A DNA stretch of 52,332 nucleotides, taken from contig JAHQVR010000154.1 in NCBI GenBank assembly GCA_019634245.1, positions 1 through 52,332 on the forward strand, in the 5' to 3' direction. Source of the DNA: Gammaproteobacteria bacterium (GTDB lineage Bacteria > Pseudomonadota > Gammaproteobacteria > Granulosicoccales > Granulosicoccaceae). A program made the position numbers and the translations under genes. This document shows, piece by piece, positions 5,903 through 51,838 of this stretch. The notes under the pieces were generated by a model. The model had not been told where the DNA came from. It saw nothing but the letters and a program-made list of their open reading frames with translations, and did not search any database. Numbering within the stretch: position 1 is the stretch's first letter; each line of letters opens with the position of its first letter.

Positions 5903-7177
5903 TCAGGTATAAATCGGGAATTGGTCCGTCAATGCATTTACCTTGTCCTTGACTGATAGTTCCACGGCTTGGTTGCCTTCTGCGCCGTTGGCTTCGAGAC
6001 CATTGAGCACCTCGATGATCAATTCCCCGACCAGCGTAAATTCCGCTTCAGCAAAACCACGAGAAGTTGCCGCAGGAGTTCCAAGTCGAATGCCTGAAGT
6101 CACCATCGGAGATTCTGGGTCGAACGGTATACCGTTTTTATTGCAGGTAATACCAGCTCGGCCCAACGAAGCTTCAGCGGCTTTACCGGTCAGTTTCTTG
6201 GCAGTTAAATCAACTAACATCACATGAGTATCAGTGCCACCAGAGACGAGGCTCAACCCACCAGAGTTGATCGCCTCTGATAATGCCTTAGCGTTGTCAA
6301 CCACAGTTTGAGCGTACTGCTTAAAATCAGGTTGCAGCGCTTCGCCGAACGCCACCGCCTTGGCGGCAATCACATGCATCAATGGCCCACCTTGCAATCC
6401 AGGAAACACTGCTGAGTTGATCTTCTTACCCAGCTCGATGTCGTTGGACAAAATCATCCCGCCACGTGGGCCACGCAGAGTTTTGTGAGTGGTGGTGGTG
6501 ACGATCTGAGCGTGTTCGACCGGATTCGGATGCACCCCGCCCGCGACAAGCCCAGCAAAATGCGCCATATCGACCATCAAAATCGCACCCACCGAGTCGG
6601 CGATTTGCCGAAAGCGGGCAAAATCGATAATACGCGGATAGGCAGAGCCACCTGCAATAATGATCTTAGGTTTGTGCTGATCCGCTAGCGACTGTACGTT
6701 GTCAAAGTTTATTTGGTGTGAATCTTTGTCCACGTTATACGACACCGCATTAAACCATTTTCCCGATTGGTTCACTGGAGAGCCATGAGTCAGATGACCA
6801 CCAGCAGCTAGATCCAGCCCCATAAAAGTGTCACCGGGTTGCAACAATGCTTGAAACACCGCCTGGTTAGCTTGAGCTCCAGAGTGCGGCTGGACATTAA
6901 CAAACGCACAGTTAAAGAGTTCTTTAGCTCGGTCGCGGGCTAAATCTTCAGCAACATCAACATGTTCACAGCCGCCATAGTAGCGGCGACCTGGATACCC
7001 TTCGGCATACTTATTCGTCATCACCGAACCCTGCGCCTCCATCACAGCGGTTGAGACAATATTCTCAGACGCAATCAGCTCAATTTCATGTTGTTGTCGT
7101 TTAAGTTCAGCCGAGATACTCGCCGCTACCGCTGGGTCGATATCAGCAAGCTTTCCCGTAAAAAAGGCGTTGGACAT
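5903..7177 (-). CDS. glyA: Serine hydroxymethyltransferase
   Basis: A PLP enzyme that interconverts serine and glycine while charging tetrahydrofolate with a one-carbon unit; cytosolic. The 424-residue length fits the family (about 417-420). The PLP lysine lies in the [14 protein letters not shown] motif (Lys232), and [22 protein letters not shown] and the AGLVAGG segment are all intact. The frame stays open upstream to 7312, but those 45 residues are Ser/Val-rich and unlike the family; ATG 7177, giving [10 protein letters not shown], is the correct-looking start. It is monocistronic, convergent with the DUF1501 gene. nrdR, often near glyA in other proteobacteria, is 32 kb away here. Confidence 0.98.
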
Positions 7178-7423
7178 GGATACTCTCAAGTCGATTTCTG
7201 AATGGGCAAAGATTACCATGGCGCAGCAGTAAACGCTGCCGTTTGTGGATACAGATGAGCTACTCACATGGGCGCTTGAAGATACCCAAAAAAGCCTCCT
7301 GTATAGAACCATTCGGGTTCGGATGGGGATTTGCCAATCGTCTCACATCAACCTAGCAGCAGCACCCATCATTGATGCGTAGAATACGGAGCATCGGATC
7401 ACCCACTCTTTAAAGAGAATCAT

Positions 7424-35785: not shown

Positions 35786-36544
35786 TTATTGCAAAGGTCG
35801 GCTCATATATTCACCCGCTTCTTTAGAACCTGGAAAATTTGACAGCAATCTTTGGGCATAGCTCTCAGCCGTGGCCCGACGATTAGAATCGCGGTTTATT
35901 TTCATACCTAAATACAAACTCTCCGCTGTCGCTGTGCCATAGGTTTCGAAGCGTTGGTAGTACGCATCGGCCACGGTCATGCGCTCCCGACGATGCATCA
36001 GATCAGCCATGTGCAAGTAGGCATTGGCAAATTGCGGATTCACCCGTAATGCTTCACGCAACCAGTTTTCTGCTTTTTCCAAATTGTTTGCATCCAACAT
36101 GCAGAGCCCAGCATTATCCAGCGCAAACTCGGGGGTTTCGTAGTAGGGGTTGTCCGCGGCTTCTCGAAATTGTGTTTCGGCTATCTCGTACTCTTCTATC
36201 TGACACAGGAAAACCCCATAGCTATTGCGATGCGTCGCATCATCAGGCTCCAGATTTATGGCCCTCTGAAAATGGGACTGAGCCTGTTCAGACTCACCGA
36301 TTCGGTGTTGCAGCTGCGCATAGTAGACGTGTGCCACGGCATTCTGGCGATCTTGAGAGAGCGCTTTTTCAAGCTTTTCACGTGCCTCATCCAGCTGCCC
36401 GCGTTGCAGGTAGTTCGCGCCTAACTCGGCGTTAAATTTAGATGCATCCTTGGCCTTTTCCGGTGCTAACCCGGCGCCTGTGCAGGCTGAAAGAATCACT
36501 ACCAATGCGGCTAGCGTCAACCCATTTAAAACTGAATTCGTCAT
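35786..36544 (-). CDS. pilF: Type IV pilus lipoprotein PilF/PilW
   Basis: A 252-residue TPR lipoprotein required for PilQ secretin multimerisation. The lipobox LSAC puts the Cys at 21. Six TPR-like repeats follow (NYLQRGQLDEAREKLEKALS, YYAQLQHRIGESEQAQSHFQ and others). It overlaps rlmN as ATGA. This gene plus pilZ indicates the organism makes type IV pili. In many relatives rodZ and ispG follow it; here hisS follows directly. Confidence 0.94.
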   Translation of the reverse strand: MTNSVLNGLTLAALVVILSACTGAGLAPEKAKDASKFNAELGANYLQRGQLDEAREKLEKALSQDRQNAVAHVYYAQLQHRIGESEQAQSHFQRAINLEPDDATHRNSYGVFLCQIEEYEIAETQFREAADNPYYETPEFALDNAGLCMLDANNLEKAENWLREALRVNPQFANAYLHMADLMHRRERMTVADAYYQRFETYGTATAESLYLGMKINRDSNRRATAESYAQRLLSNFPGSKEAGEYMSRPLQ

Positions 36545-37689
36545 TGTGCCTGTTCTCCAAAACGAAGATCGGTAAACCGGACGTACCGTCGGCTTTTATC
36601 ATTCACATCGCCTGCCAACTGGCCGCATGCAGCATCTATATCGTCACCGCGTGTGGTTCTGGTCAGGGCCAGAACACCACCTTTCATCAAAATTTCCGCA
36701 AAACGCTTGATTGCCTGAGGACTTGAACGTTTATAGCCAGAGCCCGGGAACGGATTGAACGGAATCAAATTCACTTTTCCAGGGAAATCTTTGAGAAGCT
36801 TCGCCAACTCTTTAGCGTGATGCGGTTGGTCGTTGACCCCTTCGAGCATCACATACTCGAACAGGATCTTGCGCTTTCTCTCTCCTCCCACGTAGGTCCA
36901 ACAGGCTGCCATTAAGTCTTTTATGGGGTACTTTCGGTTTATCGGTACGAGCTCATCGCGCAATGGGTCATTGGCTGCATGCAATGAAACCGCCAATGAC
37001 ACATCGATATCGTTGATCAATCGATGCATCGAGGGCAACACACCGGAGGTGCTTACCGTGACACGTCGTTTACTCAAGCCGTAACCCAGATCGTCCATCA
37101 TGAGTTCCAATGCAGGAATCAGCTGTTTGTAATTGGCCAGAGGTTCGCCCATTCCCATCATAACGATATTGGTTATCCGGGCCTGCGCAGTAGCAGCATT
37201 CGTTCTCAATAACCGGTTTGCCAACCATACTTGTCCAATTATTTCTGCCGTGGACAAGTTTCTATTGAACCCCTGCCTGGCTGTGGCACAAAAAGAGCAA
37301 TCGAGTGCACACCCAACCTGCGAGGAAACACACAGTGTTCCTCTACCCGCCTCTGGAATATAGACTGTTTCGATTGAATTCCCGTCTGTGAGTTCAAATA
37401 ACCATTTGCACGTGCCGTCGGCCGATAAATGATCACTGGTTAACTGAGGCAGCTCAACCGTGGCAGATTCCCGCAATTTCAGCTTCAAGGACTTCGAAAT
37501 ATCGGTCATTGCCTCGATATCCCGTTCATTGCGTTGATACAGCCACTGCATCAATTGCCGCGCACGATAGGGCTTCTCGCCAAGACCCACGAGAAAGTCT
37601 TCCATGGCTGGCCGGTTCAAATCAAACAGGTTGACCCGTTGATCCGTCCCCACCGCCCCTGCGATTGTAGATGCCTGCGCCACTAGCAA
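36541..37689 (-). CDS. rlmN: 23S rRNA/tRNA adenine-C2 methyltransferase RlmN
   Basis: A radical SAM enzyme that methylates A2503 of 23S rRNA and A37 of some tRNAs. The Fe-S cluster Cys are 127, 131 and 134 (CALDCSFC); Cys355 in DAACGQLAGD is the methyl-carrying residue. The start is uncertain: TTG 37689 or GTG 37683, the latter with GAG 7 nt upstream; no ATG lies near the conserved beginning (RVNLFDLNR). Confidence 0.96.
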   Translation of the reverse strand: MLVAQASTIAGAVGTDQRVNLFDLNRPAMEDFLVGLGEKPYRARQLMQWLYQRNERDIEAMTDISKSLKLKLRESATVELPQLTSDHLSADGTCKWLFELTDGNSIETVYIPEAGRGTLCVSSQVGCALDCSFCATARQGFNRNLSTAEIIGQVWLANRLLRTNAATAQARITNIVMMGMGEPLANYKQLIPALELMMDDLGYGLSKRRVTVSTSGVLPSMHRLINDIDVSLAVSLHAANDPLRDELVPINRKYPIKDLMAACWTYVGGERKRKILFEYVMLEGVNDQPHHAKELAKLLKDFPGKVNLIPFNPFPGSGYKRSSPQAIKRFAEILMKGGVLALTRTTRGDDIDAACGQLAGDVNDKSRRYVRFTDLRFGEQAQ

Positions 37690-37715: not shown

Positions 37716-38147
37716 TTAGGACCGGGTTCGAGAAACGGTACCTTCAGGAAAGAAAAACCCGATTTCTACCGCAGCTGTTTCCGGGGCATCGGAGCCATGA
37801 CAGGCATTTTCATCGATGGAGGTAGCAAAACGCTTGCGAACGGTGCCCTCTGCTGCTTCGGCAGGATTCGTTGCACCCATGACATCACGATGAGCCGCTA
37901 TCGCATTGTCACCTTCCAACACTTGCACCATCACCGGGCCAGAGGTCATGAAGCTCACCAAGTCGGCATAAAAGGGTCGTTCTTTGTGCACAGCATAGAA
38001 CTCGCCCGCCTGCTCTTGGGTTAAATGCAACATTTTAGCGGCGACGATCTGCAGGCCTGCTTTTTCGAACATGGCGTAAATGTCGCCAATGTGGTTTTTG
38101 CCGACCGCGTCTGGCTTGATAATGGAAAGGGTTTGTTCAACGGCCAT
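37716..38147 (-). CDS. ndk: Nucleoside diphosphate kinase
   Basis: A 143-residue enzyme that equalises NTP/dNTP pools. The phosphorylated His117 is in [28 protein letters not shown] is the family N-terminus, hence ATG 38147 over the in-frame ATG five codons earlier. A 258-nt gap to the upstream proteasome-like gene holds no gene I can support. A TACAAT hexamer about 45-50 nt before the start could be its -10 element, but no good -35 is paired with it. Confidence 0.98.
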
Positions 38148-38405: not shown

Positions 38406-38978
38406 TCAGCCCGAGAGTTTGACCGTTTTGAAATTCGCTGGGAGCTGGCTGGAGGTATCGAATTCTGCCCCTGCCTCGACACCGGCTTTCGCGACCTCAC
38501 GCGCTGTTTTGCAACGGCTATAGACTGCGTGCATGGCACCGATCGCGTAAGTGGCACCCGAGCCAACGGCCCAATAGGACGAGAATTCATAGACTTCCCG
38601 CAGAGAGTAGAAGGCAAAAATGCCATTACTATTGATAAACACCGCGTCGATCTGAGAACTCTCATAGGGGTCTTCCTCAGCGTCTTTGGGGTTTAGAAAG
38701 AACTGCTCTTTGAGAATGGGATGAACACGCAACAACGTATCGAACGTGGCGTCTCGGGAGCTAAAGTCGGCTTTGACATCCTTGTGTCTAAAGGCCCGTT
38801 CGGCAACCAGTGTATGGGCCGCACTGCCGACAATACCCATGTAGGTCTTGCCAAAGCTCTGAATTTTTGAATGGTACTGATCCAGTTGCGACCCTAAACG
38901 GATATCGCCAAACGTCGTCAGCGAATCGGCGGCAATGCAGGCGGTATTCCCTTTTCGCGCAACAACAATTGTAGACAC
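38406..38978 (-). CDS. Proteasome-family peptidase of the BPH type, Ser nucleophile
   Basis: A 190-residue Ntn-hydrolase of the HslV/proteasome-beta family. After Met removal it starts STIVVARKGNTACIAADSLTTFGD, so residue 1 is Ser, not the Thr of HslV. Asp17 is kept, and the Lys in HSKIQSFG (mature 37) aligns with HslV Lys33 after a 4-residue insertion. GSGATYAIGAMHAVY matches the GSGGxYA motif. It is slightly longer than HslV and lacks HslU nearby; its best match by recall is the 'betaproteobacteria proteasome homologue' BPH, a tetradecameric HslV descendant in which some members carry Ser. The start is GTG 38978, with AAGGGAG about 11 nt upstream. It follows nrdR after 36 nt, so may be cotranscribed. 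Proteolytic activity is inferred. Confidence 0.85.
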   Translation of the reverse strand: MSTIVVARKGNTACIAADSLTTFGDIRLGSQLDQYHSKIQSFGKTYMGIVGSAAHTLVAERAFRHKDVKADFSSRDATFDTLLRVHPILKEQFFLNPKDAEEDPYESSQIDAVFINSNGIFAFYSLREVYEFSSYWAVGSGATYAIGAMHAVYSRCKTAREVAKAGVEAGAEFDTSSQLPANFKTVKLSG

Positions 38979-39014: not shown

Positions 39015-39518
39015 CTATTCAGGATCTTGTAACAAGGACAATTGATTGGCGGCCATTTCGGCATCGGGTATTTGTTCCAACACTTCGATAGCTTCACGAA
39101 ACGCCGCGACATCCTCAAAGCGCCTGTACACCGAGGCAAAACGGATGTAGGCAACCTGATCTAACTTACGCAGCTCCTCCATCACCCATTCGCCGACTTG
39201 GCGCGAATCGATTTCTCGTTCTCCTGCCCCCAAGCAACGGTGCTTTACCCGTGCGACTGCATCATCGATGAGTTCTACACTGACTGGGCGTTTCTCCAAC
39301 GCTTTTTGGAAACCTGATTGAAGTTTGGCTTCGGAGAAAGGCTCTCGCGATCCATCCGATTTTACGATTCTCGGTAAGTTTAATTCTGCCGTTTCATACG
39401 TGGTGAAACGCTCCTCGCATTCCATGCATTCACGACGACGACGAACCTGATCATTGTCCCCAACCAATCGGGAGTCAACAACTCGAGTTTCTATGCTTCC
39501 GCAGAACGGACAGCGCAT
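39015..39518 (-). CDS. nrdR: Transcriptional repressor NrdR
   Basis: A 167-residue repressor of ribonucleotide reductase genes. A zinc ribbon with Cys3, Cys6, Cys31 and Cys34 (MRCPFC, CMEC) precedes an ATP-cone (about 49-139) that senses ATP/dATP. ATG 39518 gives the invariant MRCPFCG start. Usually next to ribD or glyA; here it is divergent from mdh and upstream of the BPH gene. No obvious NrdR box pair is seen in the window. Confidence 0.97.
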
Positions 39519-39560
39519 CGCTAATCTCACGTATAGAGTCAATCCAGCCGTCTTTTAGAG

Positions 39561-39582
39561 TACCACAGGCGCCTGTGATACC
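39561..39582. promoter_or_regulatory. 22-bp near-perfect palindrome between nrdR and mdh
   Basis: GTACCACAGGC (39561-39571) is followed immediately by GCCTGTGATAC (39572-39582): 10 of 11 arm positions are complementary, with a 14-bp perfect core CACAGGCGCCTGTG. It lies in the 122-nt gap between divergent nrdR and mdh, about 43 nt from nrdR and 59 nt from mdh. A dimeric regulator's operator is the simplest reading; the regulator is unknown. Confidence 0.6.
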
Positions 39583-39640
39583 ATCGTCCGCGGGTTTTTT
39601 CATATTATATCCGCACCATCTACTCCAGGACTTTTTACCC

Positions 39641-40621
39641 ATGTCACAACCTAAGCGCATAGCCGTCACTGGCGCTGCAGGACAAATCTGCTACTCCTTG
39701 TTGTTTCGCATCGCTAACGGAGATATCTACGGACCCGATCAGCCAGTCAGCCTTCATTTACTGGAGATCACACCAGCGCTGGGCCTGCTAGAAGCCGTCA
39801 AAATGGAGCTGGATGATTGCGCGTTTCCGCTGCTTAACGACATCGTCTGTACCGACGATGCAGAGGTAGCACTAAAGAACGTAGATGCAGCGCTATTTGT
39901 CGGTGCTAAGCCGCGAGGCCCCGGCATGGAACGCAAAGACCTAATCTCAGATAACGGCAAAATATTCAGTGCTCTGGGTCAAGTGCTAAACGATGTGGGT
40001 AACCCCGATTGTAAGGTGGTGGTGGTTGGAAACCCAGCAAACACAAACGCGTTAATCCTCCAAGCAAACGCACCGAAAATCAATCCGCGTAACGTGACCG
40101 CCTTAACCCGTTTAGACCACAACCGAGCGGTGTCTCAGCTAGCAGCAAAAACAGGCTCCCGTGTGGGTGATATCAAACAAATGGTGATCTGGGGTAACCA
40201 TTCCACAACTCAAGTGCCCGATATCACCTATGCCACCATTAAAGGTAAAACCGCTTCGGACCTGGTCGATCAGGACTGGGCACGCAGTGAATTTATACCC
40301 ACTGTCGCCAAACGCGGAGCAGCAGTGATTGATGCACGCGGTAGTTCCAGCGCAGCCTCCGCGGCGAATGGGGTCATCGACCATATGGCCAGTTGGATCC
40401 AAGGCACCCCCGACGGCGATTGGGTGAGCATGGCAGTCACCAGCGACGGTAGCTATGGTATTGACGAAGGGCTAATTTACTCGTTCCCAGTACAGTGTAA
40501 GGATGGCGACTACACCATCATCAACGACTTGGATGTCGGTGACTTTATCCGTGAAAAAATGCTCGCCAGTCAACAGGAACTTCGCGAAGAGCGCGATACT
40601 GTGCAAGATTTGATGGCTTAA
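39641..40621 (+). CDS. mdh: Malate dehydrogenase
   Basis: A 326-residue NAD-dependent enzyme of the TCA cycle, of the cytosolic/beta-proteobacterial type 2 clade rather than the E. coli type. [17 protein letters not shown] is the NAD motif, LTRLDHNRA and [14 protein letters not shown] hold the catalytic Asp and His, and [17 protein letters not shown] is a type 2 signature. ATG 39641 with CAGGA about 11 nt upstream is preferred over the frame's extension to 39575, which runs through the regulatory gap. Confidence 0.97.
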
Positions 40622-43319: not shown

Positions 43320-45527
43320 TTGCCGTTTGACCCGGCAGAGTCTGCGAACTCACCGGCATTTGGCCCGATTTATGAATTGAAGCTCTGTATCCCTACTCAT
43401 AGTAGATTACCCAGAACTCTTCTTGTGGAAGTACTCAGCGGCAATGCATCCGAGCCAGAGCGCGCTCGCAGAAAACAGGATCTATCCCCTGGGGATATCC
43501 GAACCCTGGACTGGTCGAGTCGGCCCGGTGATATTTTGCTGTATCCGCACTCACCACTTGCACTGGTCGATGTATTCGGCAGTGAAAAAGGGGTTTTCGA
43601 CTTACTACCCCTGGAAGATGAGAATAATGCAGAACCACCTTCAGCCCACACAGATGAGCCAACGGGTAGTGTCATTTCCCTGCAGAGTCGTAAAGGTCGA
43701 ACGCAGCGCAAACGGGCCAACTTACTCACCTGTCACTCGCCTGAAGAACTGAGTACCAAATGCAAGCGCGCGTTGATCAGTAATGCGTTAGTAAAGCAAC
43801 CCGGGCAAAAACGACTATTCATCGTGACGGGTTTCTTAAAATGGAAAGCCAACGAAAAAGCAAAGTTTCCCATTCGGTCACCACTGTTGTTCTATCCGGT
43901 AATACTCGTCAACAAAAGACATAACCAAAGTCCAACAATTGCTACGCGTGACACCCATTCAGACGCACCGGCAGAGCTATCCAAACTCTATGAAGTCCGG
44001 CTGGATAGCAACCATCCTGAATCTAACTCAGATCTAACCATGCATTGCCAAAGGCAATGGGGCATCACCCTTCCAGAATTTAGAACTGAGCTGCCATTAC
44101 AAGACTATTTTGCTCAAGTAGCAGAAGCAATTGGCAGCACAGAAGGTGTGGAATTGGAATTTGACATTGCTCTGGGTACAGCTGCGCCTCCCACAGGTGA
44201 ACCGTTAAGACGGTCAGAGGCGCAGGCACAACTGCCAGAGTTACCCAAGAATTTTGCAGCACCACTTGCCATGGCCATCGCTAAGGATAAAGATTTAAAG
44301 GAGTTGTGCGCCGTATTAAATTTAATGGACGATTTCAACAACCGCGATATCAATCTTGATGAGACTTCTCTGAGCAAAAAAAACCTATCTCAGTTGCGTG
44401 AATTGTCGAAAAAATTAAAGGCTTTGGGACTGGAACATTTGGACTTTGACACACTCCTGAAAACCACCTCATCTGTGGCAGCCAATATCAATATTGTTAA
44501 AAGCATTTTAGGTGGCAAACTAATTAACGATATTCTGCAAAACCCTGAAATCACTGCCCTCCACCTGATTCGACTAGGAGGCGTAATCGAGTTAGTCGAT
44601 AAATTCCCTATGCAGCTAAGCGAATACCGGCACGCAGATCTATGCTATCAAGCGACACCCGGTTTGTTGCGTCGTGCGCGTCATCAGGCACGGTTAATAG
44701 AGGACGAGTTTGCTGCGTTGGAAGAGTATTTTGTACTGGATAAGATTCCCACAAAGCAACAGCTACTCAGCCTAATCGATGAATTAGGCCACACCGAACA
44801 CGATACCGATATCGTCGATGCTGATTACTTTAATGCTCGAAGACTCTTCATGGATTTTAGTGTAGAGGCTCCAACCACTCTAACCACAGAGCATCGACGC
44901 CAGCTAGGACAACTAGCCAAGGTCATGAGGTTTCGTGAACTGTTTGTTAACAATACTGAATATCGAATGGCTTTGGGACCCGGCTATCGTGGCTTGCGTA
45001 CCGCCTGGGATCAGTTGGAGCAAATGACTGACTATTCGCAAGAACTCAGCGCCGTATTAGAGTCTGAAAAACATGCGGCACGAGCTATCGCTCAGTGGGA
45101 TGAATTTCGTACCACATACATCAACGAACTCGAAACGCTTCACAACACCTCCGATGCTCTGCAAGGGTTGCTTAGAATTAGTGGCAAGCGCTGGCAACAC
45201 AGCCCGGTTCAAGCCTTGGTTCGGCACTGCCAGTCCGTTGGAGAGAACCTGATAGCGCTACTAGATCATTATGGCCCCATTGAATCGCATGGGTCCAAAA
45301 CACCCGCGGCTGTGCTAGCGCAATTTACCGGTAACTCCGAAAAAGATGGTCGAGTAGAATTTTGTGTCGGTGAAGCACAGGCCCAAATTGCAGAGATTTC
45401 CAACACACAAAATTTATCTCGAGAAGCCGTTGTAGAGACGCTCTCCTGGCTTAAGTCCGCGAGTAATACCGCTGCTGAATTGTCGCTGGACATCGATGAG
45501 ATTCTGCACCACCTGAACATCGCGTAG
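43320..45527 (+). CDS. Unrecognised protein with DUF4011-like region
   Basis: A 735-residue protein I cannot name. Residues about 140-285 resemble the DUF4011 domain at the N-terminus of large helicases often tied to phage defence: a helix then RLFIVTGFLKW, RSPLLFYPVILVNK, YEVRLDSNHPESN and WGITLPEFRTELPLQDYF follow the order of that family. The usual partners (Walker A/B helicase, DUF3320, DUF559 nuclease) are absent. The rest is mostly alpha-helical. The start is TTG 43320 with a weak GGGG before it; no ATG occurs until about residue 241, and upstream the frame closes at 43212-43214. It stands between msrP and a HAD gene, with no mobile or defence neighbours. Confidence 0.72.
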   Translation: MPFDPAESANSPAFGPIYELKLCIPTHSRLPRTLLVEVLSGNASEPERARRKQDLSPGDIRTLDWSSRPGDILLYPHSPLALVDVFGSEKGVFDLLPLEDENNAEPPSAHTDEPTGSVISLQSRKGRTQRKRANLLTCHSPEELSTKCKRALISNALVKQPGQKRLFIVTGFLKWKANEKAKFPIRSPLLFYPVILVNKRHNQSPTIATRDTHSDAPAELSKLYEVRLDSNHPESNSDLTMHCQRQWGITLPEFRTELPLQDYFAQVAEAIGSTEGVELEFDIALGTAAPPTGEPLRRSEAQAQLPELPKNFAAPLAMAIAKDKDLKELCAVLNLMDDFNNRDINLDETSLSKKNLSQLRELSKKLKALGLEHLDFDTLLKTTSSVAANINIVKSILGGKLINDILQNPEITALHLIRLGGVIELVDKFPMQLSEYRHADLCYQATPGLLRRARHQARLIEDEFAALEEYFVLDKIPTKQQLLSLIDELGHTEHDTDIVDADYFNARRLFMDFSVEAPTTLTTEHRRQLGQLAKVMRFRELFVNNTEYRMALGPGYRGLRTAWDQLEQMTDYSQELSAVLESEKHAARAIAQWDEFRTTYINELETLHNTSDALQGLLRISGKRWQHSPVQALVRHCQSVGENLIALLDHYGPIESHGSKTPAAVLAQFTGNSEKDGRVEFCVGEAQAQIAEISNTQNLSREAVVETLSWLKSASNTAAELSLDIDEILHHLNIA

Positions 45528-51463: not shown

Positions 51464-51838
51464 GGGGAAGACCTGGTTTCGACGGGAGTGGCAAAACCTG
51501 AGGTGCATGCCGAGGATCAGATTACCTCGTTAAACCAGCTGAAAACTTATAGTTGCCAACGACGACAACTACGCATTGGCTGCCTAATTAGACATTTATT
51601 TGTTTAGTTAAGTAGTTCTACCCGGCGGCCGTCTTGCCTGTGATTTGGCTCCGGGGCATCAGCCACAGGATCGCTCAAAGGGTCGCCCTTACACCTGAGA
51701 GTTAAACCAATAATGGGATCGCTAACCTTAACCCCGTTCGTCGGGTTCTGGAAGGCTAAAGCTAAAGGCGAAACTAAGCATGTAGTACCAAAGGCGGAGT
51801 GCTTTCGGACGGGGGTTCGACTCCCCCCTTCTCCACCA
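51464..51838 (+). ncRNA. ssrA: tmRNA
   Basis: A 375-nt transfer-messenger RNA that frees stalled ribosomes. Its 5' end GGGGAAG pairs with CTTCTCC near the 3' end, forming the tRNA-like acceptor stem, and the gene encodes the terminal CCA. The conserved GGTTTCGACGGG follows the 5' end. The T-arm GGGGGTTCGACTCCCCC is visible near the 3' end. Between these lie the tag frame and the pseudoknot region. Confidence 0.98.
51555..51587 (+). other. tmRNA tag-peptide reading frame
   Basis: From the resume codon GCC at 51555 the frame reads Ala-Asn-Asp-Asp-Asn-Tyr-Ala-Leu-Ala-Ala then TAA at 51585-51587. ANDDNYALAA is the tag known from pseudomonads and close to the E. coli ANDENYALAA, with the ClpXP/ClpAP-recognised LAA end. 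This supports a gammaproteobacterial origin. Confidence 0.95.

Follow-up and report, generated by a model that had tools for sequence, protein, structure and literature searches.

A Ser1 form of the proteasome homologue BPH between nrdR and ndk in a gammaproteobacterium, probably placed there by erosion of a riboflavin gene cluster

BPH, a family of proteasome homologues presumably descended from HslV, was reportedly first described by Valas and Bourne in 2008. As set out in Fuchs et al. (2017; PMC5777263), BPH occurs in Gammaproteobacteria and other groups, has Ser as residue 1 in every member outside the Betaproteobacteria, and is marked by Lys37 (present likewise in the Thiobacillus protein), an acidic pore loop (with five successive acidic residues in Cupriavidus), the absence of an unfoldase and non-conservation of the residues that contact HslU; epoxomicin binds BPH at Thr1, and the three prevailing gene contexts (that is, argG, pyruvate dehydrogenase (PDC) and Hsp33) were taken by those authors as stress linked. 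Fuchs et al. (2021; PMC8665760) later counted 291 members of the family at 90% identity. Here we analyse a BPH gene on the gammaproteobacterial contig JAHQVR010000154.1 (52,332 nucleotides (nt), the whole of which we call the window), where it lies between nrdR and ndk (Table 1). As the best overall explanation, and one that we consider probable, we propose that it encodes an ATP-independent BPH with a Ser nucleophile, whose placement beside nrdR is a relic of a riboflavin (rib) cluster.

Sequence, tree and fold comparisons support the assignment of the window protein to BPH and of Ser as its predicted nucleophile, both of which had been put forward in a first-pass annotation made from the sequence alone. 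Searched against solved structures with phmmer, the protein has strong relatives only in BPH (5ovu, E 9.2e-48; 5ovs, 3.8e-29), with 20S beta at 0.0065 and HslV at 0.25 or worse, and its monomer model (pLDDT 85.7) is matched best by BPH structures, at 45% identity to the Cupriavidus metallidurans protein (5ovu) and 36–38% to that of Thiobacillus denitrificans (5ovs, 5ovt) in the fold alignment. It shares with these the fold, Asp17, Lys37, Gly50 and Ser139 (numbered on the mature protein, with the initiator Met as 0), the lack of a propeptide, the acidic pore loop and, so far as the scanned window proteins show, the lack of a known unfoldase, but has Ser1 where they have Thr1, and an nrdR–BPH–ndk context as against PDC or argG for the Cupriavidus and Thiobacillus genes; in Ser1 and family it is like the published gammaproteobacterial and other Ser1 BPHs. 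The predicted site stands as first read, at residues 1, 17, 37 and 138–140 (GSG), and Ser directly follows the initiator Met, the removal of which is presumed. Two supposed novelties proved to be in print already: occurrence in Gammaproteobacteria, taken as an extension of range, was reported in 2017, and the 4-residue insertion ahead of Lys37 and the long acidic stretch, which were suggested to form a distinct pore loop, are both typical of BPH (PMC5777263). No chain named Anbu is among the 12 structure matches listed at E 10, a comparison outside which AAH, CPH and PPH lie; Anbu is also not among the 50 fold matches listed, which we treat as no evidence.

GTG 38978 is the earliest ATG, GTG or TTG past the upstream stop codon of the window open reading frame, and TCT is not a start codon, so Thr2 cannot become residue 1 through a start shift, an escape that the first-pass annotation had allowed for; AGGGAG ends 11 nt upstream of this start. 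Start position and Ser1 are identical in all 40 complete coding sequences from the window's likely family (39 relatives and the window; 19 TTG, 16 ATG and 5 GTG starts). In a 5.8-billion-protein set, one search gave 3664 relatives and another 3494 at E 1e-3 (120 of each being listed), and the BPH family is therefore common in metagenomes. The number of relatives, the phmmer match to a solved BPH and the low omega among relatives (below) show that the open reading frame is no product of chance. The matches include a BPH of Granulosicoccus antarcticus IMCC3135. Several gammaproteobacterial BPH records among the matches listed carry the unfitting name 'MFS transporter' in NCBI. In the Granulosicoccus antarcticus BPH record (P0107) five columns are missing at the start, and Ser1 with them; a 71%-identical locus (L264), only guessed to be from this species, begins with TTG and then Ser, and the record is likely a start mis-call that conceals the nucleophile.

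The gene context of Ser1 BPH is the part that we have not found in print. The words ribD, riboflavin and nrdR have 0 occurrences in the main text of PMC5777263 (its supplements lying outside this count), and no mention of the riboflavin cluster as a BPH context was found in the literature searched, a scope that excludes subscription journals, preprints, the 2008 paper and the 2017 supplements. Among 369 genomes of the class of genome G005, with BPH called at E 1e-10, 45 hold the gene: 30 in a rib cluster (29 intact and one split), three in the nrdR–BPH–ndk arrangement and 12 as distant forms (below 40% identity). Because a draw from the class of G007 (35 of 274) overlaps this sample almost completely, with G007 its one addition, we do not treat it as a further sample. 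In the rib clusters BPH is flanked by ribD and ribE, and nrdR generally stands ahead of them. Around the 29 intact genes, ribE follows in every case and ribD precedes in 28 (the contig of L107 begins 301 nt upstream), nrdR is present in 26 (the remaining three contigs end before it), and ribBA, ribH and thiL are present in 26, 22 and 19, counts that include loci cut short by contig or locus ends. Spacing is tight: the gap between ribD and BPH has a median of 9 nt (23 of the 28 measured do not exceed 30 nt) and that between BPH and ribE a median of 3 nt (25 of 29 do not exceed 30 nt, with the start of ribE placed by motif). The neighbours were named with NCBIfam from one representative each, glyA, nrdR, ribD, ribE, ribBA, ribH, nusB and thiL scoring above their cut-offs and pgpA slightly below (207.2 versus 226 bits).

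In a draw from the same class that was not chosen for BPH, ribD was found in 46 of 56 genomes; of the 30 best-scoring loci, 25 have nrdR before ribD; after ribD, ribE comes next with no BPH at 24 loci, BPH stands between the two at three and ribE was not seen at three. The rib cluster is therefore generally gammaproteobacterial, with BPH added to it in part of the class. Translations of the long ribD–ribE gaps of L171, L177 and L159, judged by eye only, revealed no hidden BPH; the L171 gap contains an open frame that looks unlike BPH by eye (no search was aimed at it). One rib-slot BPH (L134, genome G203) is split into two overlapping frames, by decay or by sequencing error, which are not distinguished here. 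Eleven of the 29 intact rib-cluster proteins (in L096–L124) have Ala for Ser139 (GAG for GSG), giving with Ser1 an unusual N-terminal nucleophile (Ntn) site, as Ser139 bonds Thr1 in the Thiobacillus protein (Td-BPH); the window copy keeps Ser139.

How the window arrangement arose is suggested by the window's likely family (that of G005), in which 40 of 48 genomes hold BPH. Thirteen of these (52–57% identity to the window protein) carry nrdR–ribD–BPH, followed by ribE in seven and without ribE in six; among the other 27 (71–80% identity), nrdR directly precedes BPH in 23, ribD is retained in three (L256, L257 and G1127) and one locus lies at a contig edge (L260). The placement of nrdR directly before BPH, first noticed in the window, recurs in 23 of the 40 family genomes with BPH and, as nrdR–BPH–ndk, in three of the 45 in the class sample, and the family also contains the intermediates nrdR–ribD–BPH–ribE–ndk and nrdR–ribD–BPH–ndk, with ndk and then rlmN downstream wherever the fetched DNA extends and mdh upstream in opposite orientation in most. 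This series is best read as stepwise erosion, in which an ancestral order nrdR–ribD–BPH–ribE would have lost first ribE and then ribD in the window's family while BPH stayed. nrdR–BPH–ndk would accordingly be the eroded end of a rib cluster and not the tie to nucleotide metabolism that the first-pass annotation saw in it, and nrdR would stand beside BPH because it ordinarily precedes ribD in the class (25 of the 30 best-scoring loci). When eight nrdR-type genomes were searched for ribD, seven gave a match above cut-off, six of them as ribD–ribE–ribBA elsewhere with no BPH or nrdR in the fetched flank, and the seventh at a contig edge. For ribE and ribD remnants, the gaps in the window yielded only chance-level ribE matches (11 and 16 amino acids, E 0.22 and 1.3).

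The trees are compatible with these steps. In an IQ-TREE analysis of 95 of the 118 BPH-like rows, from which residue 1 was left out, the nrdR type forms a single clade (nine rows, support 100/99), and a rib-type clade excluding it is rejected by the approximately unbiased (AU) test (p 0.0167). In a second tree (FastTree) with all family copies, the 13 ribD-bearing sequences at 52–57% identity form one clade (0.998) and the 27 including the window another (0.999).

Residue 1 follows the published rule broadly. All 29 intact rib-cluster BPHs have Ser1, as do all 40 family sequences, the window copy among them. In the order to which G007 belongs (presumably Burkholderiales), 57 of 150 genomes carry BPH, at 58 places: the 30 best are all Thr1, with Hsp33 downstream in 14, and the other 28 comprise 25 Thr1 and three Ser1 (L214, L215 and L015). 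Genome G501 has two copies, one Ser1 and one Thr1 (L214 and L227). The 12 distant forms of the class sample, not all of which may be BPH in the strict sense, divide into seven Ser1 and five Thr1 (L126, L127, L128, L236 and L237). By these counts the rule is broken within the Thr group and perhaps beyond it as well. No nrdR or rib genes were found near 10 of the 12 distant forms (flanks of about 8 kb, shorter for L133; L236 and L237 are protein only). Three distant BPH-like genes (L132, L133 and L135; about 30% identity) are followed closely, on the same strand, by a gene for a putative aminopeptidase (PF10023 in the one representative scanned). In the phyla of G012 and G014 (presumably Desulfobacterales and Blastocatellia), BPH was found at E 1e-20 in one of 297 and six of 297 genomes, a count that takes in the centre genomes. 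Neither nrdR nor ribD was found within about 1.5 kb of BPH at any of these seven loci; at L240 a ribBA match lies on the opposite strand, and one of the six from the phylum of G014 (L244) is Thr1. The fewest residue-1 changes on the IQ-TREE tree number four. In the tree that includes HslV, the 'S1' label of the HslV row L079 is wrong, its TTILSVRR start lying inside the row.

Among 27 nrdR-type sequences, omega (the ratio of non-synonymous to synonymous substitution rates) is 0.019–0.049 in the five pairs with synonymous divergence (dS) below 1.5; together with the kept active-site residues and the persistence of BPH after its old neighbours have gone, this favours a functional Ntn enzyme with a Ser nucleophile and counts against strict dependence on either the rib or the nucleotide genes. 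By analogy with the two solved BPHs, both Thr1 forms, we suggest that the start Met is removed to free Ser1 as the nucleophile, that Asp17, Lys37, Ser139 and a Gly50 oxyanion hole would set up its amino group and hydroxyl, and that the subunits may close into a double ring (a tetradecamer in both solved BPHs) with the sites inside and the acidic pore loop as gate. The enzyme would act independently of ATP and of a dedicated AAA+ partner; the first-pass annotation saw no unfoldase gene nearby, and none is present among the 24 distinct window proteins scanned (part of the window's open reading frames). Only unfolded, damaged or short polypeptides able to enter unaided would then be cut, as by an uncapped 20S core, and ATP-independent cleavage of unfolded or damaged polypeptides in the gated double ring is the likeliest mode. 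Of 33 rib- and nrdR-type genomes, 29 encode HslV, and in 14 of 18 relatives (including four of six Granulosicoccaceae) the genes for HslU and HslV lie side by side, HslU adjoining HslV wherever it was found; BPH therefore adds to HslVU and is no substitute for it, and is kept alongside it.

This same HslVU pair is one half of an alternative that the first-pass annotation had raised, namely that the protein is a canonical HslV working with an HslU encoded elsewhere. The fold is shared, as are Asp17, the Lys and GSG, relatives do encode HslU, and NCBIfam HslV profiles match weakly, but the scores are far under cut-off (19.8 versus 157.75 bits and 21.0 versus 137 bits), 14 of 18 relatives own a separate HslV beside HslU, and the other half of the alternative, a place within HslV, did not hold: in the tree (on which Anbu, AAH, CPH and PPH do not appear) the protein stands outside HslV, a long branch between them. 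Nor does it show the Thr1, short non-acidic pore loop and neighbouring hslU of HslV (ClpQ), its loop being net 4 acidic as against −1 to 0, that is, neutral to slightly basic, in the 14 HslV compared; and the HslU contacts are not conserved in BPH (PMC5777263). On these scores, the phmmer values for HslV structures and the tree position we reject canonical HslV identity, which is scarcely credible. A decayed subunit, with Ser1 as the mark of lost function, is very doubtful: the proteasome works less efficiently with Ser1 than with Thr1 (PMC5777263) and one rib-cluster copy is split (G203), yet omega is low in all five measurable pairs of relatives, and Ser1, Lys37, Gly50 and GSG are kept throughout the family.

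A functional tie to deoxynucleotide metabolism through nrdR and ndk would account for the 23 family genomes with nrdR directly before BPH, but relatives in which ribD or ribE still intervenes point to an origin of the trio by loss of those genes, and nrdR precedes ribD with or without BPH; given the ribD and ribE intermediates in the family series, we reject the tie as the cause, and find it extremely doubtful. Less remote, though in our judgement unlikely, is that Ser1 BPH in Gammaproteobacteria outside Burkholderiales is a standing member of the rib cluster, co-translated with RibD and RibE from nearly overlapping genes, and acts in flavin or redox metabolism as an ATP-independent quality-control protease for flavoenzymes or oxidised proteins. 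The short gaps and the 30 of 45 genomes with the rib arrangement favour this, as do the PDC, Hsp33 and argG contexts if stress linked (PMC5777263); against it, BPH outlasts ribE and ribD in the window's likely family, ribE follows ribD without BPH at 24 of 30 loci, and carbonylated proteins were not visibly affected by BPH according to the 2017 authors (PMC5777263). If it were true, the PDC and Hsp33 contexts would agree with it, and it would provide a first physiological handle for an orphan proteasome homologue. The preferred explanation, a Ser-nucleophile BPH left beside nrdR by erosion of the rib cluster, has points against it as well. The C. metallidurans and T. denitrificans proteins, neither of which is a Ser1 form, were inert in vitro on peptides and casein (PMC5777263); selection was measurable in only five pairs, the window copy being in none; and the fold model, a monomer, is uninformative on ring size. 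A single clade of rib and nrdR types is not rejected (AU p 0.121), yet is not the best tree, and the AU values are nominal because the groups were named after the first tree had been viewed. Eight rib-type rows drawn from other samples are nested in the smallest clade uniting the two family groups (0.753), so that the family BPHs form no clean clade, and the order of losses is drawn from distribution.

Table 1. The BPH gene of the window, its predicted functional residues and its neighbours
Feature	Position	Strand	Remarks
BPH gene (Ser-1 type proteasome homologue)	38406..38978	-	190 aa, GTG start; sequence, tree and fold evidence
Ser1 codon TCT, predicted N-terminal nucleophile	38973..38975	-	Ser in 40/40 family sequences including the window
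Asp17 codon	38925..38927	-	Asp in 39/40 family sequences, Glu in L280
Lys37 codon	38865..38867	-	Lys in 40/40 family sequences
Gly50 codon, oxyanion hole by homology	38826..38828	-	Gly in 40/40 family sequences
GSG motif, residues 138-140	38556..38564	-	40/40 family sequences; in Td-BPH, Ser139 forms a bond with residue 1
Acidic pore loop KDAEEDPYESSQ, residues 97-108 (K97-Q108)	38652..38687	-	Low model confidence at the loop
nrdR, upstream neighbour	39015..39542	-	36 nt from BPH start
ndk, downstream neighbour	37716..38147	-	Start is the ATG 5 codons inside the listed open reading frame; 258 nt gap to BPH stop
rlmN, next downstream gene	36541..37689	-	Flank conserved in relatives
Malate dehydrogenase (Ldh_1 domains), divergent upstream flank	39575..40621	+	Conserved in relatives

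Elsewhere in the window, glyA, often just upstream of nrdR in rib clusters, lies at 5903–7312 (−), about 32 kb from nrdR. No RNA gene was found in the window gap at the Rfam gathering threshold, the sole Rfam match in the window being a tmRNA at 51464–51838 (+; tag ANDDNYALAA). A 735-amino-acid protein with a DUF4011 domain is encoded at 43320–45527 (+) and weakly matches Hhe (anti-phage; 66.4 bits versus a cut-off of 2000).

The window copy of BPH is ordinary for its lineage, and its interest lies in what that lineage says of the family. Crystal structures of BPH are available, yet the family has no known activity, partner or substrate. The tight home between ribD and ribE that is conserved in many species offers testable leads on co-expression, and a lineage that loses this home but keeps BPH may provide a lead on what the enzyme does not need.
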